Origin: Chitinophagales bacterium
GTDB lineage: Bacteria > Bacteroidota > Bacteroidia > Chitinophagales > CAIODY01
DNA: 42,328 nucleotides
Assembly (NCBI GenBank): GCA_947449695.1
Contig: CANFST010000022.1
Coordinates: forward strand, 1-42,328
Direction: 5' to 3'
Shown piece by piece: positions 1,528 through 18,624 of this stretch; the first letter of the stretch is position 1; each line of letters begins with the position of its first letter. The notes under the pieces are model-generated. The model saw nothing but the letters and a program-made list of their open reading frames with translations, did no database searches and was not told where the DNA came from. Made by a program: the position numbers and the translations under genes.

Positions 1528-2883
1528 ATGAATTTTCACATTGTAGCTTGCGGCGGAAGTGTAATGCACCAGTTAACTATTCAATTAAAGAGGCTTGGAC
1601 ACCATGTTACAGGCAGCGACGACGAAATATTTGAACCAGCTTTATCTAATTTAAAAGTCCACAATTTACTCCCAGAAGAAATGGGTTGGAATGCTGAAAG
1701 AATCACTAAAAATCTGGATGCAGTAATTGTGGGAATGCATGCACATGCTGATAACCCCGAATGGTTAAAAGCGAAAGATTTGGGATTGAAAATTTATAGT
1801 TATCCTGAATTTATTTACGAACATAGTAAAAACAAAACCCGTGTTGCAATTGCCGGAAGTCATGGGAAAACAACCATTACAGGGATGGTGATGCATGTAT
1901 TAAAACAAAACAATAAAGCTTTTGATTTTTTAGTAGGTGCAAAATTAGAAGGCTTTGAATATTCAGTTCAATTAAGCGATGCGCCAATAATGATTATTGA
2001 AGCTGATGAATATCCTGATTCGCAGGAAACAAAAATTCCAAAATTCTTATACTATAAACCGCAAATAGCTTGCATCAGCGGCATTGCCTGGGACCATATC
2101 AATATTTTTCCAACATTTGAAAACTATGTATTACAGTTTGAAAAATTTATTGAAAGCATGGAACAAAACGGACATTTGTTTTACAATCAGGATGATAAAA
2201 CTTTGTGTGATTTAATAACCAAAGCTCAAAACCTGAATGTATCAGGATATAGTGCTCATGAGCATTTGAAAACAGAAGATGGTTTTGAATTGGTCACAAA
2301 ATCCAAAAACTATACTGTTCAGATTTTTGGCGAACACAATTTTTATAACATCAATGCTGCCTATCACATTTGCAAAACACTGGGTCTGAGCAATGAGGAA
2401 TTTTATACTGCAATACAAACATTTAAAGGTGCTGCAAAACGATTACAGCTCATTCATAAAAGTGATAAAAATATTTTCTACTTCGATTTTGCTCATGCAC
2501 CTTCAAAAGTGAAAGCAACAGTGAACGCTATGAAAGAGCTATCACCAAATCGAAAGCTGGTGGCTTGTCTCGAGTTACATACTTACAGCAGTTTGAATAA
2601 AGAATTTCTGAAAGAATATAAAGGTTGTTTTGATGGTGTTGATTTTCCAATTGTGTTTTATTCGCAACATTCTTTTGAAATGAAACGTCTGCCAGAGGTT
2701 TCACCAAGGGAAATATTATTGGCATTTGGCAATGGAGAATTAAAAACTTTTAATCAACCACAGCAATTGCTAACTTATCTGAAACGCATAACGCAGTTTG
2801 AAAAAGAATTCAACCTGCTGATGATGACCAGCGGTAATTTTGGTGGAATGAAAATGGAAGACGTTGCAAAGTTTTTATTTTAG
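1528..2883 (+). CDS. mpl: UDP-N-acetylmuramate:L-Ala-gamma-D-Glu-meso-DAP ligase (Mpl)
   Basis: A 451-residue Mur ligase. The N-terminal UDP-binding domain begins with the glycine-rich HIVACGGS. The ATP-binding loop GSHGKTT is at residues 110-116, with the metal/ATP signature IIEADEYPDS and the central HNFYNINAAY segment typical of Mur ligases. Mpl reattaches tripeptide from old peptidoglycan to UDP-MurNAc, a cytoplasmic recycling step. Length and motifs fit Mpl rather than MurC, which is longer and has a different N-terminus. The ATG at 1528 follows an A/T-rich leader. The next gene on the strand, an NlpC/P60 peptidase, also concerns peptidoglycan. Confidence 0.93.
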   Translation: MNFHIVACGGSVMHQLTIQLKRLGHHVTGSDDEIFEPALSNLKVHNLLPEEMGWNAERITKNLDAVIVGMHAHADNPEWLKAKDLGLKIYSYPEFIYEHSKNKTRVAIAGSHGKTTITGMVMHVLKQNNKAFDFLVGAKLEGFEYSVQLSDAPIMIIEADEYPDSQETKIPKFLYYKPQIACISGIAWDHINIFPTFENYVLQFEKFIESMEQNGHLFYNQDDKTLCDLITKAQNLNVSGYSAHEHLKTEDGFELVTKSKNYTVQIFGEHNFYNINAAYHICKTLGLSNEEFYTAIQTFKGAAKRLQLIHKSDKNIFYFDFAHAPSKVKATVNAMKELSPNRKLVACLELHTYSSLNKEFLKEYKGCFDGVDFPIVFYSQHSFEMKRLPEVSPREILLAFGNGELKTFNQPQQLLTYLKRITQFEKEFNLLMMTSGNFGGMKMEDVAKFLF

Positions 2884-2904
2884 AGACTTGAAAAAAAATA
2901 CTAA

Positions 2905-3549
2905 ATGCCATTGAATCAAATAAAAATATATTTTATTTTTTTTGTAGCCACAGTAGCAATGGGCTGCAGTGCTCCAAAATCTGCAAAAACAGTTATTCCG
3001 CACAAAAAAGACAATATTGAAACAATTGGTAACACCAAACCAAATCAATTACCAACTTCCAAAAAAGAAGTTAGCAAAAATCAACGTCCAAATAATTTTA
3101 AAAATGAAAAGGAATACGATAAATTTTTAATTAACCATTATTCTGACATATTAAATACGCCAAAATCTTATATCAAAAATAGTTTATCATTGTACAAATT
3201 TGTTGATATGTGGCTTGGAACTCCTTATCGCTATGGTGGAGAAGACATGAATGGTATAGATTGCAGCGGATTAGTAAAAACTACTTACAATGAGGTTTTC
3301 CATCAAAATATTACCCGTGATGCAACTTCTCAGTTTAATCAATGTGAATCTTTAGGCAAAGAAGATTTAAATGAAGGAGATTTAGTTTTTTTTAAAATTG
3401 GCTCTCGAAATATAAGTCATGTAGGCATTTATTTAGGCAATAGCAAATTTTTTCATGCCAGTTCCAAAGGCGTAGTTATTAGTGATTTAAATGAAAAATA
3501 TTATAGCAAATATTTTTACAAAGGGGGGAGATTGAAATTGAATAAATGA
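2905..3549 (+). CDS. NlpC/P60 (C40) cell-wall peptidase lipoprotein
   Basis: A 214-residue protein with a signal peptide and lipobox VAMGC (lipidated Cys21), a Lys/Asn-rich linker (about 22-90), then an NlpC/P60 domain. Catalytic residues are visible: Cys120 in GIDCSGLV, His172 in ISHVGIYLG and a polar third residue near His184. The family cuts gamma-D-Glu-diaminopimelate bonds in peptidoglycan; the lipid anchor places it at the inner face of the outer membrane or in the periplasm. It starts 21 bases after mpl, so the pair may be one operon linking wall cleavage to peptide recycling. Confidence 0.88.
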   Translation: MPLNQIKIYFIFFVATVAMGCSAPKSAKTVIPHKKDNIETIGNTKPNQLPTSKKEVSKNQRPNNFKNEKEYDKFLINHYSDILNTPKSYIKNSLSLYKFVDMWLGTPYRYGGEDMNGIDCSGLVKTTYNEVFHQNITRDATSQFNQCESLGKEDLNEGDLVFFKIGSRNISHVGIYLGNSKFFHASSKGVVISDLNEKYYSKYFYKGGRLKLNK

Positions 3550-3582
3550 TACCCTTTAAAGAAAAGAATTAACATTTAAGGT

Positions 3583-3590
3583 TATATTTG
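3583..3590 (+). promoter_or_regulatory. Bacteroidota-type -7 element before the epimerase gene
   Basis: TATATTTG matches the TAnnTTTG -7 consensus of Bacteroidota primary sigma factor promoters, 16 bases before the ATG at 3607. No convincing TTTG -33 element lies 19 bases upstream. Confidence 0.5.
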
Positions 3591-3606
3591 CGCTCATTTT
3601 TAAAAA

Positions 3607-4593
3607 ATGTATCAATCAGTTAACTTTCATGGAGGCGAAGATTTAAGCCAATCATCTTTTTTAGTGACAGGCTGTGCAGGCTTTATCGGATCGCACATAG
3701 CAGAATATTTATTGCAGCACAATGCTAAATTGGTAAAAGGTTTTGACAACTATTTAACTGGTTTAAAATCGAATATCGACTTACTAAAAAAGTATCCCAA
3801 TTTTGAATTTATAGAAGGGGATATTTGTGATTTGAATGCATGCAGAAATGCTTGTGAAGGAATCGATTTTATTACTCATCAAGCAGCTTTAGGATCAGTG
3901 CCAAGAAGCATAAAAAACCCTTTACATAGTCATCAAGTAAATGTTGATGGATTTTTAAATATGTTAATTGCCGCTCGTGATGCTAATGTAAAGCGGTTTT
4001 TGTTTGCATCATCATCCTCAGTTTATGGCGATTCAATTGAATTGCCTAAAGTTGAAAATAAAATTGGGAAGCCTCTTTCACCTTACGCTGTTACCAAGTA
4101 TACCAATGAACTTTATGCTGATGTATTTGCTAAAAATTATGGTATGCAAATAATTGGCTTCAGATATTTTAATGTGTTCGGCCCAAGGCAAGACCCAAAT
4201 GGTGTTTACGCAGCAGTTATACCAAAATTCATTAATTCATTATTAAAAAACGAAAACCCTGTAATTGATGGTGATGGTTTACAAACACGTGATTTTACCT
4301 ACATTGAAAATGTTGTTCAAATAAATATAAAAGCTTTTTTTGCTAACCAACCGGGTTGTACAAACAGAGTTTACAATGTTGCTGTAGCGGCTAATTTTTC
4401 AGTTTTAGAAATGTATAAAACGCTAGTTGAAATATTGCATCTTTCATTTCAATCACAACATACTGAAACCCGTAAAGGTGACATCCGCAATTCATTGGCT
4501 GATATTTCAGCAGCAAAAAATTTATTGCATTACATACCCACAGTCAACTTTAAAGAGGGTTTAAGCAAAACAGTAAAATACTTTCAACAATAA
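3607..4593 (+). CDS. NAD-dependent sugar-nucleotide epimerase (UDP-GlcNAc 4-epimerase-like SDR)
   Basis: A 328-residue extended short-chain dehydrogenase. The Rossmann glycine motif TGCAGFIG lies at 21-28, the serine cluster ASSSSVYG at 134-141 and the catalytic YAVTK at 160-164. The overall pattern, including FNVFGPRQDPNGVYAAVIPKF, resembles WbpP/TviC enzymes that interconvert UDP-GlcNAc (or its uronate) and the galacto form. It probably supplies precursors for surface polysaccharide; the Wza-like exporter gene starts 8 bases later. Exact substrate cannot be told from sequence. Confidence 0.85.
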   Translation: MYQSVNFHGGEDLSQSSFLVTGCAGFIGSHIAEYLLQHNAKLVKGFDNYLTGLKSNIDLLKKYPNFEFIEGDICDLNACRNACEGIDFITHQAALGSVPRSIKNPLHSHQVNVDGFLNMLIAARDANVKRFLFASSSSVYGDSIELPKVENKIGKPLSPYAVTKYTNELYADVFAKNYGMQIIGFRYFNVFGPRQDPNGVYAAVIPKFINSLLKNENPVIDGDGLQTRDFTYIENVVQINIKAFFANQPGCTNRVYNVAVAANFSVLEMYKTLVEILHLSFQSQHTETRKGDIRNSLADISAAKNLLHYIPTVNFKEGLSKTVKYFQQ

Positions 4594-4601
4594 ATAATTT
4601 A

Positions 4602-7112
4602 ATGAAAAAATTAGTTCTAATTTTTGCTTTGATTGGCATTGGTTTTAATTCAATGGCACAAGTAGATATGAGTTCAATACAGAGTTTGCTGCAATCTGGT
4701 GGACTAGACCAGTTACTTCAATCAAAAGGTATTGGAAACAACGATATTCAAAAATTGAAAGGAATGGCTTCGCAATATGGCACTGGTAATGGTGGCTCAA
4801 CAGCCACAGGTGCTAATTCAACGATTGTAACCAATACTCCAGCTGATTCATTTAAAAACGGACAACCAAATCCTGTTCAAAATTTTAATCCAAATAATCA
4901 AACCCAAAATGGAGGGTTTCATAATTTTTTAAATAACTATCAGCAAAGTTCTGCATCAGTTTCTTCCAATGAATTTTATAGTATTTTATCCAATTTAATA
5001 AAACAAAATGACTCATTAAAAAACTTTCAAAATAAACGTATCAAGAGCGTATTTGGATTAGATTATTTTCAAAGCACTCCTTTGGCAGTTTTTGATAGAA
5101 GTAATGGCAGTAAAGCGCCTGACAATTATACCCTTGATGAAGGTGATGAATTAAATATTTCAGTTTGGGGATTCGCTGAATATAATGACGTTTTTAAAAT
5201 TGATAATGATGGATATATTCAACCTCAAAATGTTGGACGAATCTATTTAAAAGGGCTCACTTTCAAAGAAGCTCGGGATTTGATAACAAAAAAATTTGGT
5301 GGTGTATATGATTTAAACAATTCAAAGATTGGCATCAAATTAAACTATTCTAGAATTATTAGAGTGAACATTGTTGGAGAAGTAAATCATCCAGGCACCT
5401 ACTCTATTCCTGCTATCAATAGTGCTTTCAATGCTTTGGCTGCCGCCCAAGGGCCTGATTCTATTGGTACAGTTCGTAATATTCAAATTAAACGAGAAGG
5501 GAAAATTATTCGTACTTTAGATTTGTATGAATTTTTGATGAATCCTGACAATAAAGAAGAATATTTTTTACGCGACAATGATTATTTGATTATAAATTTT
5601 TACGAACAACGGGTTAGTATCTTGGGCAATGTAAAGCGACCGATGATTTATGAAATGAAGAAAGGTGAAACCATAAGCGATTTAGTGAAATTTTCTGGTG
5701 GATTAAAATCATCAGCTTTCACAAAAAACATCAGAATAAAACATTTTGAAAATAATCATCTAAGCTTAGTTGATGTTGATTTTGAAGCTATTGAAAAATC
5801 TAAAGCCAAGCCATTTATATTAAGCGATGGTGATGAAGTTTTTGTTAGCAATGTTGATTCGGAAATTTTCAACAAGGTTACTTTAAGTGGTGCAGTAAGA
5901 GTGCCCAACGACTATGAAATAAAAGAAAACGAAACGCATGTAGCTGACATCATAAAAAAAGCTGGTGGTGTGCTTTATAGCACCTACACACACAAAGCTT
6001 ACATTACTAGAATTGATGCTGCATTGAAAAAAGGATATATGGCTTTTAATGTAGATTCTGTTTTAAATTTCCCCAACATTGCTTCTAATTACTTATTAAA
6101 ACCATTGGATAAAATTGAAATATTTTCAAAGCACCGGTTCGAAGATTCGATAAAAATTAAAATAAGTGGTGCAGTTAGAAAACCAGGGCAATATACTTTT
6201 GGCACTAACCTTACTTTAAAAGACGTGTTATATTATGCAGGCGGATTAAGAGCCGAGGCTGCTGGTAACCGAATAGAGGTGGCTCGAATAATTAATTATA
6301 ACGAAAGTACTAAACAAGGTGAAGCAACTAAAATTGCCATTAAAACTGTACAAGTAAATACTGATTTATCCTTAGATGAAGCATCCGAAAAATTTGAAAT
6401 GCAACCCTATGATGAGGTATTTGTTCGCACCATTCCTGAGTTTGATTATCACAAAGACGTTATTTTGATTGGTGAAATAAAATATCCAGGTGTTTATTCA
6501 TTACTTTCAAAAAACGAAAAGTTATTAGATGTGGTTAAACGTGCAGGAGGCATGTTACCGAGTGCATTTCATCAGGGTGTAACCATTAAACGAACCAAAA
6601 ATAATATCGGGAATGTAGTAGTTGATATTGACAAAGCAATCAATCGTCCACATTCACAATTCAATTATTTGCTTCGTGAAAACGACACTATTTTTATTCC
6701 AAAAATAAATGAGTTAGTTACTATAACAGGTGCAATTAACTTTATTGGTTCAAGTACTGATTCTATTAGCCAAATAAGTGTTCCTTTTTTTGCTGGCAAA
6801 CGTGCAGGATATTATATCAAAAATTTTGCTGGCGGATTTAATAAAAATGCTTTTCGCCGAAAAGTAATTTCAATTGAAGCCAATGGCAGAATGCGAAGCA
6901 CACGAAAATTATTTGGTATCATTAATCATTATCCAAAAATAAAAATGGGATCTAAAATTGTTGTCCCCAAAAAACAACCAGAGCCGCTTACAGCTAATGG
7001 TTCAGGGTTTGATTGGAATAGAGCTTTTGATACTTTTACAATTCGACTCACAGGTGTGATTACTTTATTTGTAGTGGTTTCGAAAGCTGCACAGGTGATA
7101 ACTAATAAATAA
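4602..7112 (+). CDS. Polysaccharide export protein with Poly_export and SLBB repeats (Wza-like)
   Basis: An 836-residue secreted protein. The signal peptide ends at MAQ (about residue 20), and a Gln/Asn/Ser-rich low-complexity stretch runs to about 130. A Poly_export domain begins around DEGDELNISVWG (about 180-260). Five clear SLBB repeats follow, recognisable by the recurring GxVxxPGxY and AGG motifs, plus one degenerate repeat near the C-terminus. A hydrophobic segment (GVITLFVVVSKAAQ) closes the protein and could be the outer-membrane helix seen in Wza. It is much longer than E. coli Wza and has no lipobox. It would form the outer-membrane exit for capsule or exopolysaccharide. No co-polymerase or flippase is in the window. 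Confidence 0.9.
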   Translation: MKKLVLIFALIGIGFNSMAQVDMSSIQSLLQSGGLDQLLQSKGIGNNDIQKLKGMASQYGTGNGGSTATGANSTIVTNTPADSFKNGQPNPVQNFNPNNQTQNGGFHNFLNNYQQSSASVSSNEFYSILSNLIKQNDSLKNFQNKRIKSVFGLDYFQSTPLAVFDRSNGSKAPDNYTLDEGDELNISVWGFAEYNDVFKIDNDGYIQPQNVGRIYLKGLTFKEARDLITKKFGGVYDLNNSKIGIKLNYSRIIRVNIVGEVNHPGTYSIPAINSAFNALAAAQGPDSIGTVRNIQIKREGKIIRTLDLYEFLMNPDNKEEYFLRDNDYLIINFYEQRVSILGNVKRPMIYEMKKGETISDLVKFSGGLKSSAFTKNIRIKHFENNHLSLVDVDFEAIEKSKAKPFILSDGDEVFVSNVDSEIFNKVTLSGAVRVPNDYEIKENETHVADIIKKAGGVLYSTYTHKAYITRIDAALKKGYMAFNVDSVLNFPNIASNYLLKPLDKIEIFSKHRFEDSIKIKISGAVRKPGQYTFGTNLTLKDVLYYAGGLRAEAAGNRIEVARIINYNESTKQGEATKIAIKTVQVNTDLSLDEASEKFEMQPYDEVFVRTIPEFDYHKDVILIGEIKYPGVYSLLSKNEKLLDVVKRAGGMLPSAFHQGVTIKRTKNNIGNVVVDIDKAINRPHSQFNYLLRENDTIFIPKINELVTITGAINFIGSSTDSISQISVPFFAGKRAGYYIKNFAGGFNKNAFRRKVISIEANGRMRSTRKLFGIINHYPKIKMGSKIVVPKKQPEPLTANGSGFDWNRAFDTFTIRLTGVITLFVVVSKAAQVITNK

Positions 7113-7118
7113 ATTTGC

Positions 7119-7667
7119 ATGCAAGTATTTGAGACCCCAATCAAAGGTTTATTAGTAATTCAGCCAACTATATTTAATGATAGCAGAGGTTATTTTTTTG
7201 AGAGTTTTAATCAAGAAAAATTCAATAATCTTACAAAAACCAATACGCAATTTGTTCAGGATAATCGTGCATTTTCATCATTTGGTGTTTTAAGAGGTTT
7301 ACATTATCAAAACAATCCGCATGCTCAAGCCAAGTTAGTATCGGTTTTGCATGGTAAAGTTTTGGATGTTGCTGTTGATATTCGTCCGAATTCCGAAACA
7401 TTTGGAAAACATTTTAGTATCGAATTATCTGCTGAAAATAAAACACAATTATTTGTGCCACGTGGCTTTGCCCATGGCTATGTGGTATTAAGCGATACAG
7501 CTGAATTCTTTTACAAATGTGATAATTTTTATAATAAAAATGCTGAAGGTGGAATCGCTTTCAACGACCCTCAATTAAATATTGATTGGCAGATTGATTT
7601 ATCGAAAGCAATCATATCAGATAAAGATTTAGTGAACCCATCATTAAAATCTATTTCATTAGATTGA
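7119..7667 (+). CDS. rmlC: dTDP-4-dehydrorhamnose 3,5-epimerase
   Basis: A 182-residue cupin of the RmlC family. Signature blocks are FFESFNQEKF, VQDNRAFSSFGVLRGLHYQ with catalytic His62, VDIRPNSETFGKH and FVPRGFAHGYVVLSD. It epimerises C3 and C5 of dTDP-4-keto-6-deoxyglucose in dTDP-L-rhamnose synthesis in the cytosol. It starts 6 bases after the SLBB exporter gene, so epimerase, exporter and rmlC look like one polysaccharide operon. rmlA, B and D are not in this window. It converges with murI. Confidence 0.93.
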   Translation: MQVFETPIKGLLVIQPTIFNDSRGYFFESFNQEKFNNLTKTNTQFVQDNRAFSSFGVLRGLHYQNNPHAQAKLVSVLHGKVLDVAVDIRPNSETFGKHFSIELSAENKTQLFVPRGFAHGYVVLSDTAEFFYKCDNFYNKNAEGGIAFNDPQLNIDWQIDLSKAIISDKDLVNPSLKSISLD

Positions 7668-10968: not shown

Positions 10969-11211
10969 GTGAAAAATCCTCTAGAAATAAAAAACTTCAT
11001 CGCCGAAAAAATTGCAGAAGAATGCAGAGTTTCCATCGATGAAATTTCTTTTGAAAAATCGTTTCTTGATTTTAATATGGATTCATTGGCATTGATTTCG
11101 ATGTCAATGGAAATTGAATCATTTGTAGGCATGGGCGAAATTAATCCCACAGTTTTTCACGAATTTAACACCATCAATAAACTCACAGAATGGTTAGTAA
11201 CTCAAAAATAA
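10969..11211 (+). CDS. Acyl/peptidyl carrier protein
   Basis: An 80-residue four-helix carrier. GTG at 10,969 is the start. The phosphopantetheine attachment motif is FNMDSLALI with Ser39, and helix II is rich in Met and acidic residues (SMSMEIESF). It is not the fatty-acid AcpP, which has a DSLD core, and is more like DltC or secondary-metabolite carriers. It overlaps the P450 start by 22 bases, implying translational coupling. It probably carries the acyl or aminoacyl group that the downstream P450 modifies and the MBOAT enzyme transfers; that is inference from gene order. Confidence 0.88.
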   Translation: MKNPLEIKNFIAEKIAEECRVSIDEISFEKSFLDFNMDSLALISMSMEIESFVGMGEINPTVFHEFNTINKLTEWLVTQK

Positions 11212-12398
11212 TTTGGAATCCATATAGCCCTGATTATTTCCGAAACCCTTACCCACACTTAAATGCATGTCGGGAAAGCAACCCCATTCAATTTGGATTA
11301 CACGATTCCTGGATTTTTTTTAAATACAACCATGTCAGCGAAATTATTCGTTCGCAAGATTTTTTAGTATCAGATTTAAGTGGTTATTTGAAAACAAAAG
11401 AGCCTTACATTTTCGGCAATAATGGTTGCCCCTATTTAGCAAAAGGTACTCAAAAATGGTTGTTGTATTTGAATGGTGATGAACACAAACAAGCCAGAGC
11501 CATTGTAGGAAAAGCCTTTAAAGAATTTAATCTGAAAGTTGCCATCAGCGAAGCGACTGAACAAGTCATCAAAAAATTTGAATCAGAAACTGAATTTGAC
11601 GGCATTGATTTTTGTTCTGAATTTTTGTTTTTCATCATGAAAAAATTTTACAACATTCATGATGATTACACGATGGAAGAAATAAAAATTTATAGTAATC
11701 GCATCGCTCGAGCACAAGATATGTTTGTAACTAAACAAGTTTATCAAGAAATCAACAAATGGTTTTTATGGGGAAATGACATGTTTAATCATCAAGGAAA
11801 TGATGCATTCAACTACAAACAATTGATAGAAGATTTTGCAAAAAATATGCAGGTCGAGTTTTCAGAAGAAAATGTGCTATCAATTCTATCACTCTCACTC
11901 ATGGCGGCTTTTGAGACATCAAAAGACAATTTGGTCATTGCCATTAATGAATTTTTGACTCAACCCAATTTGATGGAAGAAGCACTCTCATTTGATGAAA
12001 ATCAAATCAGTTTATTGACAGAAGAAATTTTTCGTTTTTGTGCACCAGTGCATTACACTATTCGAATCAACAAAAACAAATTGCAGTTTAACGATATCGA
12101 AATTCCTGCTCAATCTCGAATTTATGTTTGCCTAGCAAGTGCCAATCGTGACGCAGATGAATTTCAAAATCCTGATTCCTTCATTTCACTCCGAAACCCC
12201 AATGAACACTTAACTTTTGGGGCTGGTAGCCATTTATGTTTGGGAGCTTCTATAGCCCGTCAGGAAATAAGAATTTGTATCAAACCAATGATTGAATTTT
12301 TGAAAAATTATTTAATTGATTCCTCGAAAGAATTAAAATACGGCAAACAAATTTTATTGCGAACTATTGAATCTCTTCCAATAAAAAAGAAAAGTTAA
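11190..12398 (+). CDS. Cytochrome P450
   Basis: A 402-residue soluble class-I-sized bacterial P450. The heme loop FGAGSHLCLG places the thiolate at Cys350. The E-x-x-R pair is Glu279/Arg282. The I-helix has AAFETS with the acid-alcohol pair Glu242-Thr243, so O2 activation looks intact. The usual glycine of AGxxT is alanine. No ferredoxin or reductase gene is nearby, so electrons must come from elsewhere. The coupling to a carrier-protein gene suggests a carrier-bound substrate, as known for P450BioI and for P450s acting on PCP-bound amino acids. The substrate is unknown. Confidence 0.92.
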   Translation: MVSNSKIIWNPYSPDYFRNPYPHLNACRESNPIQFGLHDSWIFFKYNHVSEIIRSQDFLVSDLSGYLKTKEPYIFGNNGCPYLAKGTQKWLLYLNGDEHKQARAIVGKAFKEFNLKVAISEATEQVIKKFESETEFDGIDFCSEFLFFIMKKFYNIHDDYTMEEIKIYSNRIARAQDMFVTKQVYQEINKWFLWGNDMFNHQGNDAFNYKQLIEDFAKNMQVEFSEENVLSILSLSLMAAFETSKDNLVIAINEFLTQPNLMEEALSFDENQISLLTEEIFRFCAPVHYTIRINKNKLQFNDIEIPAQSRIYVCLASANRDADEFQNPDSFISLRNPNEHLTFGAGSHLCLGASIARQEIRICIKPMIEFLKNYLIDSSKELKYGKQILLRTIESLPIKKKS

Positions 12399-12402
12399 TG
12401 GC

Positions 12403-13779
12403 ATGGAACTATTGACAGTACTGATTTTCATTGCTTCAAACTTTTTTCTGTTGTTTTTTTTTTCAACAGAAAATAAATGGAAAGCATTGCTCATCAGCAG
12501 CTTGATTTTCTATTTTTTTATCGTTGGTTACAAAATTATTTTTCTGATTGCCTTGGCCTTTTGCATTTACCAAATGAGTTTTTTGATAGAAAGAAAAAAG
12601 ATAAAAACTTGGTTGATTGTCATTTTGATTTTATTGCCATTGTTGCTTGAAAAGCTTACTCACGATACATTTCACTCAGAAACAACTTTTTCAAAAGGTA
12701 TTTCAATCAATAGCGTTTTTGATTTAAGAAACGTTTTGCAAATCATTGGCATTTCTTATTTCACGTTTAATGCACTGAGTTATATCATTGACATTAAGCG
12801 AAAATATTTGCAGCCTGAAAAGAATTTTTTTTTAGTGTTACTCTACTTAATTTTCTTTCCTTGCATTTTTTCAGGACCACTTCATCGAGCAAAATATTTA
12901 TTCCATCAGTTCAAAAGTATGGCAATAAATGATGAAACAATTTCCTCAGGATTAAGATTAATGTTGTGGGGCTTATTCAAATACAGAGTAGTAGCAGAAC
13001 GGATTGGGGCGTTAATCAAATATTTGCTAGTATTCAAAATCGGTGGCTTTTATTATCTGTTTGTCGGATTGCTTTTCTTTTTTTATTTGTATTTTAGCTT
13101 TAGTGCTTTCATTGACTTTTTTCAAGGCGTTGCAGCAATTTTCGGAATCAAATTGAAAGATAATTTTCGCAACAGAATTTACTTTTCCAACTCACGTCAA
13201 TCGTTTTGGAAGGGTTGGCACATAACACTCAACGAGTGGTTTCGTGATTATTTCTTTTTTGAAATAATTCGGCTTGATAGAAAAAGAAAATTCACCAATT
13301 TATTTTTGTTTTTGACCTTTGTTTTGATTGGCTTATGGCATGAATTTACTTTTATATTTTTATTGTGGGGATGCCTGAATGGCTTATGGATATTAATTGA
13401 GAAGCAGATTGACTTGGAAAAATTGCCCTTTAAAAATTTCAGAAAGTACGCAGGAGTGATTTATCATTTATCTATCGCATCGTGTTTGGCATTGTTGTTT
13501 TTTTCAAAAAGTGCAACAGAATTATTTAAGAAAATCTTTGTTGAACAATCCCATTTTCCAATAACTTTTTTCAGTACAATGAGCAATAATTTGGTGATTT
13601 TGATTTTCTCCTTTTTGCTGGTGGAATATCATTCCATCAAATCAGGTGAAGAAAAATTCAATGATTACATGCAACGAAAATCACTTACTAATCGGTGGTT
13701 GGTATATTTTCAATTAGCTTTAATGATTGTTCTTTTTGGATTAAATGCACAAATGGAAAACGACTACATTCAATTTTAA
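12403..13779 (+). CDS. MBOAT-family membrane O-acyltransferase (DltB/AlgI-like)
   Basis: A 458-residue polytopic protein with about ten hydrophobic segments. The MBOAT core is clear: SRQSFWKGWHITLNEWFRDY with His273, then LIGLWHEFTFIFLLWG with the conserved catalytic His313. The family moves acyl groups across or within the membrane onto extracytoplasmic hydroxyls (alginate acetylation, D-alanylation of teichoic acid). It starts 4 bases after the P450 stop and ends 1 base before the next ATG. Beside a DltC-like carrier, its donor could be the carrier-bound product of the P450. Confidence 0.92.
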   Translation: MELLTVLIFIASNFFLLFFFSTENKWKALLISSLIFYFFIVGYKIIFLIALAFCIYQMSFLIERKKIKTWLIVILILLPLLLEKLTHDTFHSETTFSKGISINSVFDLRNVLQIIGISYFTFNALSYIIDIKRKYLQPEKNFFLVLLYLIFFPCIFSGPLHRAKYLFHQFKSMAINDETISSGLRLMLWGLFKYRVVAERIGALIKYLLVFKIGGFYYLFVGLLFFFYLYFSFSAFIDFFQGVAAIFGIKLKDNFRNRIYFSNSRQSFWKGWHITLNEWFRDYFFFEIIRLDRKRKFTNLFLFLTFVLIGLWHEFTFIFLLWGCLNGLWILIEKQIDLEKLPFKNFRKYAGVIYHLSIASCLALLFFSKSATELFKKIFVEQSHFPITFFSTMSNNLVILIFSFLLVEYHSIKSGEEKFNDYMQRKSLTNRWLVYFQLALMIVLFGLNAQMENDYIQF

Positions 13780-13780
13780 C

Positions 13781-14716
13781 ATGAAAATCAAACAATCCAT
13801 ATTCAAACTTCTGGTTTTCGTTTTGACGATAATGATTTTCATTTTTAGTGTGAAGTATTTTTATGGAAAGAAAAAATCTGACATCGTCATTTTGCTTCGT
13901 CAAACTCAAATCACAAAAGATTCTTGCATTTATTTTATTGGTTCTAGCAGAGTGCAAAATGCCGTAAATATTCGATTGATAGCTGATTCTATTCATTCGA
14001 GTCATATTTTTAATTTAGGGTGCTCCGGAGCAAATTTTTTCAGCAATTGTTTGCTAGCAGAATTTTTAATGCAAAATAAATCACCCAAAAAATTATTTAT
14101 TGAACTGGGGTTAATCAAAAATAATTTTCCGAAACATTTTGCTTTTGTTGCCGAAGAGGCTGATATGAATTTGTATTCTCTGACTGAAAAATTATTCAGC
14201 AATCAATTTTTTTTTGACCGACAAAAACAAAAATATTCTTTACTTGAAGAGTATACTAATAACAATTTAAACTTTGATGCTGACAAGCTAATGCAAACAC
14301 TTCACTTAAAAAAAATTGAGCAACATTGGGGCTTTGTGGCTAAAAAGAAAACAGATTTTCAATCAACAAATTCATTTTTAACAGAAGAAGAAATTTACAA
14401 AAAAGAATTTCAAAGCAGCCAAACTACCCAATATGAATTGTTCATTCTATCATTACTAAAATCAGCAAAAGAAAGTAACACAAAAATTATTTTCATGCTG
14501 CCTTTAACTTGTGAAGACCAAGACGAAAAGCAAGCAATCATTCCTTTTTACAGAACATTGCCCGATAGTTTCAAATTTGTTTTCACCAAAAAATTTATGA
14601 ATGAAATTTCCGATTCAAAGTATTTATTCAACGCAAATCATTTGAATGAGGATGGAGCAAAGGTTTATTCAGAAATGATATCAGACTATTTAAAACAGAC
14701 CAAAAAGTGTAAATGA
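13781..14716 (+). CDS. Membrane-anchored SGNH/DltD-like protein
   Basis: I chose ATG 13,781, one base after the MBOAT stop, over an in-frame ATG at 13,745 inside that gene. The 311-residue product has one N-terminal membrane anchor (about 7-28), then an extracytoplasmic domain. YFIGSSR (Ser55/Ser56) resembles an SGNH block I, NLGCSGAN block II, and NANHLNEDGA near 284 the C-terminal block with His287. The Asp of the classical DxxH is Asn284 if this alignment is right. It would act with the MBOAT protein on the outer face of the membrane, as DltD does with DltB or AlgX/AlgJ with AlgI. No named family is claimed with certainty. Confidence 0.75.
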   Translation: MKIKQSIFKLLVFVLTIMIFIFSVKYFYGKKKSDIVILLRQTQITKDSCIYFIGSSRVQNAVNIRLIADSIHSSHIFNLGCSGANFFSNCLLAEFLMQNKSPKKLFIELGLIKNNFPKHFAFVAEEADMNLYSLTEKLFSNQFFFDRQKQKYSLLEEYTNNNLNFDADKLMQTLHLKKIEQHWGFVAKKKTDFQSTNSFLTEEEIYKKEFQSSQTTQYELFILSLLKSAKESNTKIIFMLPLTCEDQDEKQAIIPFYRTLPDSFKFVFTKKFMNEISDSKYLFNANHLNEDGAKVYSEMISDYLKQTKKCK

Positions 14717-15373: not shown

Positions 15374-16669
15374 TTATAAATACGGTAGCTTAACAATAAA
15401 CTCACTACCCATATTTTGTTCTGAAATTACCTCGATATTTCCACCATGGTTTTTAATTATTCCAAAAGCAACTGACAAACCTAATCCTGTGCCTTTGCCA
15501 ACATCTTTGGTTGTAAAAAATGGGTCGAATATTTTTTGTTGAATTGCCGCATTCATTCCTCTGCCATTGTCTTTCACCATAATTTTAATTTGGTTATTTT
15601 CAGCAGAAGTTGAGATATTGATTTTGCCTTTTTCATCAATTGCATCAAATGCGTTGTTTATCAAATTAAGAAACGCTTGATTTAGTTCGCCAGGATAGCA
15701 AGCTAGTTCAGGAATATTTCCAAGTGCAAGTTCAACTTCAATATTTTTTTCTTTTAAATGATTGCCCACCAAAAGCAAACAAGAATTTATTCCATCATTC
15801 AGATTGACTTTTTTCTTTTCAGTTTCGCTTAATCTTGAAAAGCTTCTTAAGCCACTTACAATTTCTGCAATTCTTTTTGCTCCGTCGGTTATACCTTCTA
15901 ACAATTGCCTTGATTCGGTGATGGAATATTTCAAATCTTCCGAAACCTTGGATGGCTCTTGGTTAATGAATTCAATCATGTCATCAATATCTCTTGTCAA
16001 TGGGTTTACATTGCTCAATACGAAATTGATTGGGTTATTGATTTCATGAGCAACACCTGCGGTTAGTTGACCCAATGAAGCCATTTTTTCAGATTGAACA
16101 ATTTGTGATTGTGCTTCTTTAAGTTGCTTGAAAGCTTCTTGTTGTGAAACTAAAAGTTCATCACTTTTCTCTTTTTCAAGCCTTAATTCTTTAGTTCGTT
16201 CATCCACCAATATTTCTAACTCTTTATTATGCCTTTCTAATAATCTATTTTGTTCTTGTAATTGCTTTTCCTGATAAAAGCCTTTGATAGCTTCTTTGAT
16301 AGTCAAGATAAGGTCATTTCCTTCCCATGGTTTAGAGATATAGCGATATAGGTTAGCATGATTAACAGCTTCTGTAACTGCATCAATATCTGTTTGACCA
16401 GTAAGCAATATATTGTAGGTGGAAGGTGTCAGCTGATGAATTTGTTTAAGCAATTCATGTCCTTTGATACCAGGCATTAATTGGTCAGAAATAACAACCA
16501 CAATTTCATTCCCTTCAAGCATCAATTCGTTGACTAATTCCAATGCTTCTTCACCACTTTCGGCAAGTTCAATAGAAAAGTCAGAGCCGAAGTATCTGCC
16601 TAACTGAGTTTGCAAGCCATTTAGTACAATACGTTCATCGTCAACACAAATAATAGTTCCTTTTCCCAT
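15374..16669 (-). CDS. Response-regulator receiver fused to histidine kinase (REC-HK)
   Basis: A 431-residue soluble protein with reversed hybrid order. The receiver domain comes first (1-125; acidic pair Asp10/Asp11, phosphoacceptor Asp62, Lys113), then a coiled coil (about 130-195), an H-box HEINNPINF with His208 and an HATPase domain with NLINNAFDA, DNGRGM and GTGLGLSV. There is no membrane segment. It is the last gene of a three-gene operon, 3 bases after a lone receiver. It probably receives phosphate or protein contact from the other two and controls its own kinase. No DNA-binding output is present in the operon. Confidence 0.9.
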   Translation of the reverse strand: MGKGTIICVDDERIVLNGLQTQLGRYFGSDFSIELAESGEEALELVNELMLEGNEIVVVISDQLMPGIKGHELLKQIHQLTPSTYNILLTGQTDIDAVTEAVNHANLYRYISKPWEGNDLILTIKEAIKGFYQEKQLQEQNRLLERHNKELEILVDERTKELRLEKEKSDELLVSQQEAFKQLKEAQSQIVQSEKMASLGQLTAGVAHEINNPINFVLSNVNPLTRDIDDMIEFINQEPSKVSEDLKYSITESRQLLEGITDGAKRIAEIVSGLRSFSRLSETEKKKVNLNDGINSCLLLVGNHLKEKNIEVELALGNIPELACYPGELNQAFLNLINNAFDAIDEKGKINISTSAENNQIKIMVKDNGRGMNAAIQQKIFDPFFTTKDVGKGTGLGLSVAFGIIKNHGGNIEVISEQNMGSEFIVKLPYL

Positions 16670-16672
16670 TTT

Positions 16673-17059
16673 CTAATCTTTAATTAAATCTACTAAATCC
16701 TTTTCGTTCCAGGGCTTATGAATAATTTTTATGCCTTTGTTAGACTTTTCAATATCATGAATCACCTTACTGTCTATATGCCCAGTAAGTAGAATGGTTT
16801 TTACATTATCCACTTTCTTACGCACTTCTTCTAATAATTCATCACCTTTCATGCCCGGCATCAACCAATCTGAAATAACAACATAAATCATTTCATCATC
16901 AGCTTTGTGAAGTTCTTCAATAATTTCAAGTGCTTCTTTAGCTGATTCGGCAAACTCATAATTAAAATTTTTTCCAAAATTTCTTGTAAGTTGAGAGTTC
17001 AAACTGTCAAGCACAATTTTCTCATCGTCAACACAAACTATGTTTAAGATTTTTTTCAT
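16673..17059 (-). CDS. Single-domain response regulator
   Basis: A 128-residue receiver domain with nothing else: acidic pair DDE at 11-13, phosphoacceptor Asp64 in VVISDWLMPG, Thr in LLTGH and Lys in IIHKPW. It overlaps the membrane kinase gene by 4 bases. It is clearly related to the receiver of the following REC-HK gene (both keep LLTG and the KPW motif), so one may have arisen by duplication. It acts as a phosphate shuttle or protein-contact switch. Confidence 0.92.
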   Translation of the reverse strand: MKKILNIVCVDDEKIVLDSLNSQLTRNFGKNFNYEFAESAKEALEIIEELHKADDEMIYVVISDWLMPGMKGDELLEEVRKKVDNVKTILLTGHIDSKVIHDIEKSNKGIKIIHKPWNEKDLVDLIKD

Positions 17060-18624
17060 GTTGTTTTTAAATTTATTGGAAGCTTAATAAAAAATGTTGT
17101 GCCTTCGCCTTCAGCAGATTGAAAAGAAATAGTTGCGTTATGTTCATCCAAAATTCGTTTGATTATATCAAGCCCTAAACCACTTCCTTCACCTGAAGTT
17201 TTTGTTGTGAAGAATGGTTCAAAAATTTTATCTTGAATATCTTTCGGAATTCCTTTGCCGGTGTCTTTGATGCTTACCATAACAAAATCACCTTCGTTTT
17301 TTAATCCAATTGTCAGTATGCCTTTATTGTCCATTGCTTGGGTAGCATTTACAATCAAGTTTGTCCAAACCTGATTGAGCTGGTCTGGATGCCCCATAAT
17401 ATCAGGCACTTCATCATAATTCTTAATTACCTGAATGCCTTGCTTTAAACGATTGTGATAAATAGTAAGAACGGTTTCTAAATTGTCGCGTAGATTGATG
17501 GTTTCTTCTTCGTCTTTTGCAGACGAGTGAAGGTATGTTTTTAATGCTTTTACAATTCGTGAAGCTTTGTCAACTGCCAACTGTATGGTTTGATTACTTC
17601 TTTGTTGATTAAGGATATTATATACAATCATCATCAGCTTTTCAAAATGTTCTTGCTGTGCAATTCGTTCTAATGCAGGCGTTACTTCATATATTCCCAC
17701 CTGAACCAAACGGTCGGCAATAAATCTTGAATTTGATATGCCAAGTTCTTCAAACCGTCCCCTAAGTTTTTTCTTTATTTCACGTTCTTCAATAGTTGAT
17801 AATGTTTGAGTGCTAGGATTAGAAGTAGCAACAAACTCAACAAACATATCTTTTTCTTTATCACTCAAAGCTTGTGTAAGCCAAACAAAATCGACAAGTA
17901 TTTCACCAAAAGCTTTTGATGATTCTTCAGCAGATGATTTGATTGCTCCCAATGGCGTATTTACCTCATGTGCTATTCCTGCTGAAAGTTGACCTAAGGC
18001 AGCCATCTTTTCAGATTGTACAAGCAAAAGGTGTGTCTTCTTGAGCAAAAGAAAAGTATTATTTCGCAACACATAGAAAATTAACAATGCAAAAATTATG
18101 GCGGAGATAACTACTATGTTTAGTGTGTAAAGTATCATCGACACATTCAATGGAGTATTTGGTTTTATCCAATCAATAAACACATGGTCGAAAACTCCGG
18201 TTAGTATGGTTAATACAAGATATAATACAAGCCAAAACAAACTGCTTTTTACATTCTGATAACTTAACGAAGCAGCTACTGCCAACATCGCCCAAAGCAT
18301 AACGCCTCCTGATGCATGGAAGCCACCCAGTACCCATTGAAAAACAAATGGCAGCAATAAACTAATGGCTGTTTGAAAATCTCTTACGATTGAAAAGTTT
18401 TTACTTTTTGCGAAATAAAGAAGGTTGAAAAAGGTAAGGACAATATATCCATAGGGTACTATAGATTGAAATTTAAAATTGAGGAAAAGTACAATTGTAC
18501 CCCACATTAAACCACCCATGCTCATAAGGATGCCTTCATAAACAACAAATTGTTTTTGATGAATTGCATTTTCATCATCACCTGCTTTAATGCCAATTTT
18601 AGAAATGTCTGTTAGTAAACTCAT
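17056..18624 (-). CDS. Membrane sensor histidine kinase with six-helix sensor and H-box insertion
   Basis: A 522-residue kinase. Six hydrophobic segments span about 30-187 with little between them, so the sensor is membrane-embedded. SEKMAALGQLSAGIAHEVNTPLGAI carries His219. Between this H-box helix and the second dimerisation helix (LAVDKASRIVKALK, about 370) lies an extra helical block of about 130 residues with many charged residues, much longer than the usual turn. HATPase motifs are NLIVNATQAM, DTGKGIP and GSGLGLDI. It is first in the operon with a lone receiver and a REC-HK. Signal unknown. Confidence 0.9.
   Translation of the reverse strand: MSLLTDISKIGIKAGDDENAIHQKQFVVYEGILMSMGGLMWGTIVLFLNFKFQSIVPYGYIVLTFFNLLYFAKSKNFSIVRDFQTAISLLLPFVFQWVLGGFHASGGVMLWAMLAVAASLSYQNVKSSLFWLVLYLVLTILTGVFDHVFIDWIKPNTPLNVSMILYTLNIVVISAIIFALLIFYVLRNNTFLLLKKTHLLLVQSEKMAALGQLSAGIAHEVNTPLGAIKSSAEESSKAFGEILVDFVWLTQALSDKEKDMFVEFVATSNPSTQTLSTIEEREIKKKLRGRFEELGISNSRFIADRLVQVGIYEVTPALERIAQQEHFEKLMMIVYNILNQQRSNQTIQLAVDKASRIVKALKTYLHSSAKDEEETINLRDNLETVLTIYHNRLKQGIQVIKNYDEVPDIMGHPDQLNQVWTNLIVNATQAMDNKGILTIGLKNEGDFVMVSIKDTGKGIPKDIQDKIFEPFFTTKTSGEGSGLGLDIIKRILDEHNATISFQSAEGEGTTFFIKLPINLKTT

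Follow-up and report, generated by a model that had tools for sequence, protein, structure and literature searches.

D-Alanylation of teichoic acids by the Dlt system (DltA, DltB, DltC and DltD) involves a carrier protein, a membrane-bound O-acyltransferase (MBOAT) and a membrane-anchored SGNH protein encoded in one operon. The AlgI/AlgJ/AlgX and PatA/PatB systems likewise combine an MBOAT with a membrane-anchored SGNH protein and, to our knowledge, include neither a carrier protein nor a cytochrome P450. P450s meet acyl carriers in two other settings. In starter units of lipopeptide and polyketide pathways, a P450 adjoins a fatty acyl-AMP ligase (FAAL) and an acyl carrier protein (ACP), and in biotin synthesis the P450 BioI (CYP107H1) acts on acyl-ACP. 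Here, we describe a four-gene cassette in which these elements are combined. It lies on the + strand at positions 10969–14716 of contig CANFST010000022.1 (positions 1–42,328; assembly GCA_947449695.1) of a Chitinophagales bacterium. We refer to the whole 42,328-nucleotide stretch as the window and to the genome that contains it as the window genome. We propose, with a probability of roughly 0.55, that the cassette moves an oxidized acyl group out of the cytoplasm and onto the cell envelope.

Analysis of open reading frames (ORFs) identified four genes on one strand with spacings of −22, +4 and +1 bases, the start of the P450 gene overlapping the carrier gene by 22 bases:

10969–11211, + strand: acyl carrier protein, 80 aa; GTG start; phosphopantetheine site Ser39 (NMDSLA); PF00550, 3e-10.
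11190–12398, + strand: cytochrome P450, 402 aa; heme ligand Cys350 (FGAGSHLCLGA); PF00067, 7.4e-19.
12403–13779, + strand: MBOAT of the DltB/AlgI branch, 458 aa; His273 (WHITL) and His313 (GLWHE); PF03062, 1.5e-10.
13781–14716, + strand: predicted SGNH-fold protein, 311 aa; one N-terminal membrane anchor; Ser56 (GSSR) and His287.

For the SGNH gene, ATG 13781 is the most likely start, rather than ATG 13745 of the longest ORF, because homology begins at the former. A first-pass annotation of this DNA had described four tightly packed genes in a dlt-like arrangement with a P450 in the middle and no adenylating gene; each of these features was borne out, including the lack of an adenylating gene within the operon. 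The cassette thus differs from Dlt in having no DltA, in its carrier, which is not DltC, in the presence of a P450 and in belonging to a Gram-negative phylum. We know of no teichoic acid synthesis in Bacteroidota. Scans for promoters and terminators at the cassette yielded no more matches than did shuffled sequences.

The four genes recur as a unit. A class-wide search of 395 genomes returned two orthologs of the P450, each 39% identical to the window protein, and two more emerged when 84,980 species genomes were scanned, one in an Aquimarina metagenome-assembled genome (MAG; 51%) and one in a Saprospiraceae MAG (48%). All four orthologs occur in the order carrier–P450–MBOAT–SGNH. When 398 genomes of the window's order were searched with the P450 profile alone, one new ortholog was recovered, whose region then proved to contain all four genes in order. 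Overall, the six P450 orthologs, including that of the window, all lie within a cassette of identical gene order in a Bacteroidota genome, and none is unlinked from the other three genes. The first-pass annotation had suggested looking for this gene order in other Bacteroidota, and five further genomes contain it. Chance linkage is excluded because the same four genes recur in the same order in these five genomes, and the genes flanking the cassette differ between genomes. Further, the pairwise identities of the four proteins correlate with each other (r = 0.91–0.99 over 15 genome pairs). Between the two closest members, the ratios of nonsynonymous to synonymous substitution rates were 0.14 for the P450, 0.21 for the MBOAT, 0.24 for the SGNH protein and 0.35 for the carrier. 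These data demonstrate that the four genes form one conserved unit and that, in the two closest members, they are under purifying selection.

Gene content, gene order, the intact motifs of the P450 and MBOAT, the SGNH fold and co-divergence are established by the analysis; the details of the proposed mechanism derive from family relations, namely the fatty-acyl cargo, its oxidation on the carrier and the direction of transfer. In this mechanism, the phosphopantetheine arm of the dedicated carrier would bear an acyl chain, most probably a fatty one, and the P450 would oxidize this chain on the carrier. Hydroxylation would be the likeliest outcome, with a BioI-like chain cleavage also possible. 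The carrier would then approach from the cytoplasmic side and dock on the MBOAT, which would take the acyl group through its membrane tunnel, by analogy with DltC and DltB, for which transfer from the carrier has been described (PMC9338922). Finally, the anchored SGNH protein would hand the acyl group on, outside the membrane, to a hydroxyl group on a glycan or lipid of the envelope, as is thought for DltD and PatB.

The two membrane proteins of the cassette resemble those of Dlt. The MBOAT scored above the gathering score of PF03062, and His273 and His313, the latter already singled out in the first-pass annotation, are invariant in the six members. When the MBOAT profile was compared with solved structures, DltB was the only match (1e-22). 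Nevertheless, the window MBOAT falls far under the cut-off of the DltB equivalog model (107.6 versus 375 bits). The fourth gene and its family had no significant match in Pfam. Its product has a single hydrophobic segment, at approximately residues 6–24, and was modelled with a mean predicted local distance difference test score (pLDDT) of 75. The best Foldseek match of this model was DltD (6pfx; E = 2.6e-5), and VIA-align related it to TesA (Z = 13) and PatB (Z = 12). Ser56 and His287 are kept in the family. The fourth gene is therefore predicted to encode a membrane-anchored SGNH-fold protein, in keeping with the anchored SGNH-like protein noted earlier.

One alternative is an ordinary O-acylation system of the AlgI or PatA/PatB style, in which the MBOAT and SGNH protein use an acetyl–CoA-type donor and the carrier and P450, although part of the same operon, act separately as a pair that tailors a diffusible lipid. 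MBOAT–SGNH pairs are indeed common in the class: among the 30 top-scoring MBOAT loci examined, approximately 20 contained a match to the SGNH profile, nearly all without a carrier or P450. By contrast, the cassette contains both, and its MBOATs form a clearly separate group, scoring ∼740 bits against at most 230 bits for typical MBOATs of the class, with the next at 419 bits. Moreover, in six genomes the four genes are linked and have diverged together. We therefore consider this explanation unlikely. The 419-bit relatives, the nearest MBOAT–SGNH pair (G164, contig C12; L121:6703–9057), end at a contig edge, such that their upstream genes are not visible.

The P450 is the sole P450 of the window genome. 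As the first-pass annotation stated, its heme ligand, Cys350, is intact; this residue, the ExxR motif (Glu279–Arg282) and the helix I motif AAFETS, containing Glu242–Thr243, are invariant in all six orthologs. Against solved structures, a profile built from five members ranked PksS (150 bits) and BioI (145 bits) as the top two matches. When the P450 of a distant operon (G262, described below) was added to the profile, BioI ranked first at 222 bits. BioI has been crystallized with acyl-ACP (entry 3ejb). The similarity to BioI is genuine, though distant, and the closeness of the cassette P450s to P450s acting on acyl-ACP is suggestive only, a hint rather than proof. The predicted structure of the P450, based on five sequences, was poor (pLDDT of 60) and was not used in fold searches. 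The top-scoring P450s from outside the cassettes that were compared included two plasmid-encoded proteins of Nostoc (L135 and L136), each between a FAAL-ACP gene and a polyketide synthase (PKS), and a plasmid-encoded P450 linked to bioW. In the Nostoc units, as in the cassette, the P450 adjoins an acyl carrier of the same type; however, such units carry a FAAL and feed a PKS or nonribosomal peptide synthetase (NRPS), whereas the cassette has no FAAL and its output is the MBOAT–SGNH pair. In a phylogenetic tree, the five cassette P450s included were joined with full support, and their position among the remaining P450s was not firm. The P450 matches in 395 genomes of the class and 395 of the phylum were mostly ferredoxin-linked or unrelated, without a carrier or MBOAT.

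The ranking of BioI, together with that of the bioW-linked P450, raises the alternative that the cassette P450 cleaves fatty acyl-ACP as BioI does, yielding a short carboxylated acyl group of the biotin or dicarboxylic type, for example a pimeloyl-like one, for attachment outside the cell by the MBOAT and SGNH protein. However, no biotin genes lie beside any of the six cassettes, an MBOAT–SGNH pair has no role in biotin synthesis, and the cassette, unlike BioI, comes with a carrier of its own and a step of transfer at the membrane. In light of these differences and the distant similarity, we regard this alternative as improbable, somewhat more so than ordinary O-acylation.

Evidence as to the cargo comes from the carrier, which is 36–49% identical to the ACPs of the other cassettes. 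The carrier had been annotated as DltC-like, with an aminoacyl group among the possible cargoes. However, it matched no DltC model at E ≤ 0.1, no DltC was found in the PDB search, and the carrier of another MBOAT locus (G361) did match the DltC model in the same library. The solved sequences nearest to the cassette carrier were 4hkg, 2n98, Asl1650 (2afd) and the N-terminal ACP of Pks13. FadD32, a fatty acyl-AMP ligase, loads Pks13, and 2n98 and 4hkg are presumably carriers of lipopeptide-type units. The cassette ACP profile also matched FAAL-ACP fusions of Nostoc and of another genome, G265, in their ACP portion. In its sequence, then, the carrier resembles FAAL-loaded acyl carriers and not DltC. 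A second line of evidence is a distant Bacteroidota operon (G262; L033:3191–9399) that encodes, in order, a FAAL (403 bits to PRK05850), an ACP, a P450 that is 20–22% identical to the cassette P450s, and an MBOAT, with an adjoining convergent SGNH-like gene. Because of the FAAL-type carrier and the G262 operon, a fatty-acyl cargo appears more likely than an aminoacyl one. The G262 operon may itself represent an ancestor, or a parallel form, in which the loader was retained. The G265 locus (L031:3361–7416) comprises the FAAL-ACP fusion, a 243-aa gene and a convergent P450, with no MBOAT nearby.

The least probable alternative is a dlt-like aminoacyl system, in which an amino acid loaded by an enzyme encoded elsewhere undergoes β-hydroxylation by the P450, a reaction of the kind seen in NRPS pathways, and is placed on an envelope polymer: P450s acting on carrier-bound amino acids are known, and the G361 locus, which couples an MBOAT–SGNH pair to a carrier and an amino-acid adenylation enzyme, indicates that such logic exists in Bacteroidota, but the cassette carrier is of the acyl type rather than the DltC or peptidyl carrier type, and the window genome contains no DltA-type or amino-acid adenylation enzyme, its only two AMP-binding enzymes being an acetate–CoA ligase and a FadD11-type long-chain fatty-acid CoA-ligase. 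The G361 locus (contig C125; L123:138–6879) encodes, in a row, an SGNH protein, an MBOAT, a carrier, the adenylation enzyme, a PigA/RedW-like prolyl-carrier dehydrogenase and a halogenase-like flavoprotein; it looks like a system in which a carrier-bound pyrrole-type group is handed to an MBOAT–SGNH pair.

Several observations weigh against the transfer of an oxidized acyl group by the cassette. The window MBOAT is no closer to DltB than are ordinary Bacteroidota MBOATs (107 versus 119–148 bits). Searches with single P450 sequences, as opposed to the profile, ranked archaeal CYP119-type or other P450s at the top, and in the tree the cassette P450s did not group with FAAL-linked P450s. The four-gene unit contains no gene for a redox partner. 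In the SGNH protein of the window, the position occupied by the Asp of a DxxH motif in the five other members is Asn284 (14630–14645). Finally, a loader is missing: no FAAL is encoded in the window genome or in any of the six cassettes.

Possible sources of the acyl group were evaluated from the gene inventory of the window genome. The genome encodes two carriers only, that of the cassette and the ACP of fatty acid synthesis, which lies beside the fatty-acid-synthase gene. This inventory excludes, for this genome, the possibility raised in the first-pass annotation that the carrier serves an unrelated synthase; a hidden NRPS or PKS was likewise rejected, as the genome has no carriers of such enzymes. 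A FAAL encoded elsewhere in the window genome was rejected because none was found. At a site apart from its cassette, the Aquimarina MAG (G783; L083:1429–4200) does encode a FAAL, accompanied by an ACP of its own and an acyl-CoA dehydrogenase-like gene. This FAAL was rejected as the loader since its own ACP adjoins it, and it likely serves another unit. As the genome has no FAAL or DltA-type ligase, the carrier is probably loaded by a general acyl-ACP or acyl–CoA synthetase or supplied directly from fatty acid synthesis. FadD11-type ligases are also present in two pond MAGs. One study notes that acyl-ACP synthetases are hard to distinguish from other ligases by sequence (PMC10522932). Dedicated carriers loaded by acyl-ACP synthetases are known: in sphingolipid synthesis, AcpR, loaded by AasR, channels fatty acids to one envelope-lipid enzyme (PMC9386255), much as we propose for the cassette carrier. 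The two systems differ in that AasR is encoded near AcpR whereas the cassette has no loader.

Overall, the oxidize-then-export logic advanced in the first-pass annotation is the best explanation of the cassette, with the cargo revised: an aminoacyl group is not supported. We further propose, tentatively and at a little under even odds, a distinct envelope-modification pathway in which a dedicated carrier bears a fatty acyl group while the P450 oxidizes it and then delivers it directly to the MBOAT–SGNH pair. Such a pathway, spread as a four-gene cassette among Bacteroidota, would be the first of the dlt-like kind to include oxidation of its cargo. We rate the cassette as a new variant of MBOAT/SGNH envelope acylation. 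No description of this gene combination was found in the literature searched, in which subscription journals were poorly covered, so this is weak evidence of novelty. If the proposal is correct, an acyl group is tailored by P450 chemistry before its export to the cell surface, transfer from carrier to MBOAT extends beyond D-alanine, and a previously unrecognized class of lipid or glycan esters in the envelope is indicated. The cassette also provides a compact system in which to study how DltB-type MBOATs and their SGNH partners move acyl groups across the membrane and how P450s recognize acyl carriers.

The cassette is rare: P450 orthologs occur in 3 of the 395 class genomes and 2 of the 398 order genomes, the window genome being counted in both. 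It was not found in the two same-genus genomes searched. The window copies are closer to those of the Aquimarina MAG (51% for the P450) than to those of G940, a member of the window's own order (37%), and the G940 copies are closer to those of the pond MAGs, which belong to another order. Horizontal transfer of the cassette as a whole would fit this pattern, as would an old duplication followed by loss. There is no compositional sign of recent transfer, as the GC content of the cassette (0.29–0.33) resembles that of its surroundings. In an empty-site comparison performed without a positive control, TspO had no match in five close relatives. The neighbouring helicase gene has orthologs in the two same-genus genomes, where the cassette is absent and the neighbours are quite different; therefore, no clean insertion site was identified.

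Upstream of the cassette, at 1528–7667, the window contains Mur ligase-type, NlpC/P60, sugar-nucleotide epimerase/dehydratase, SLBB polysaccharide export and dTDP-sugar epimerase-like genes. Between these envelope-related genes and the cassette lie murI-like, cold-shock and helicase genes; the envelope-related genes are not conserved beside the other cassettes. On the other side, at 15374–18624, lie adjacent genes for a response-regulator/histidine-kinase fusion, a response regulator and a membrane histidine kinase.

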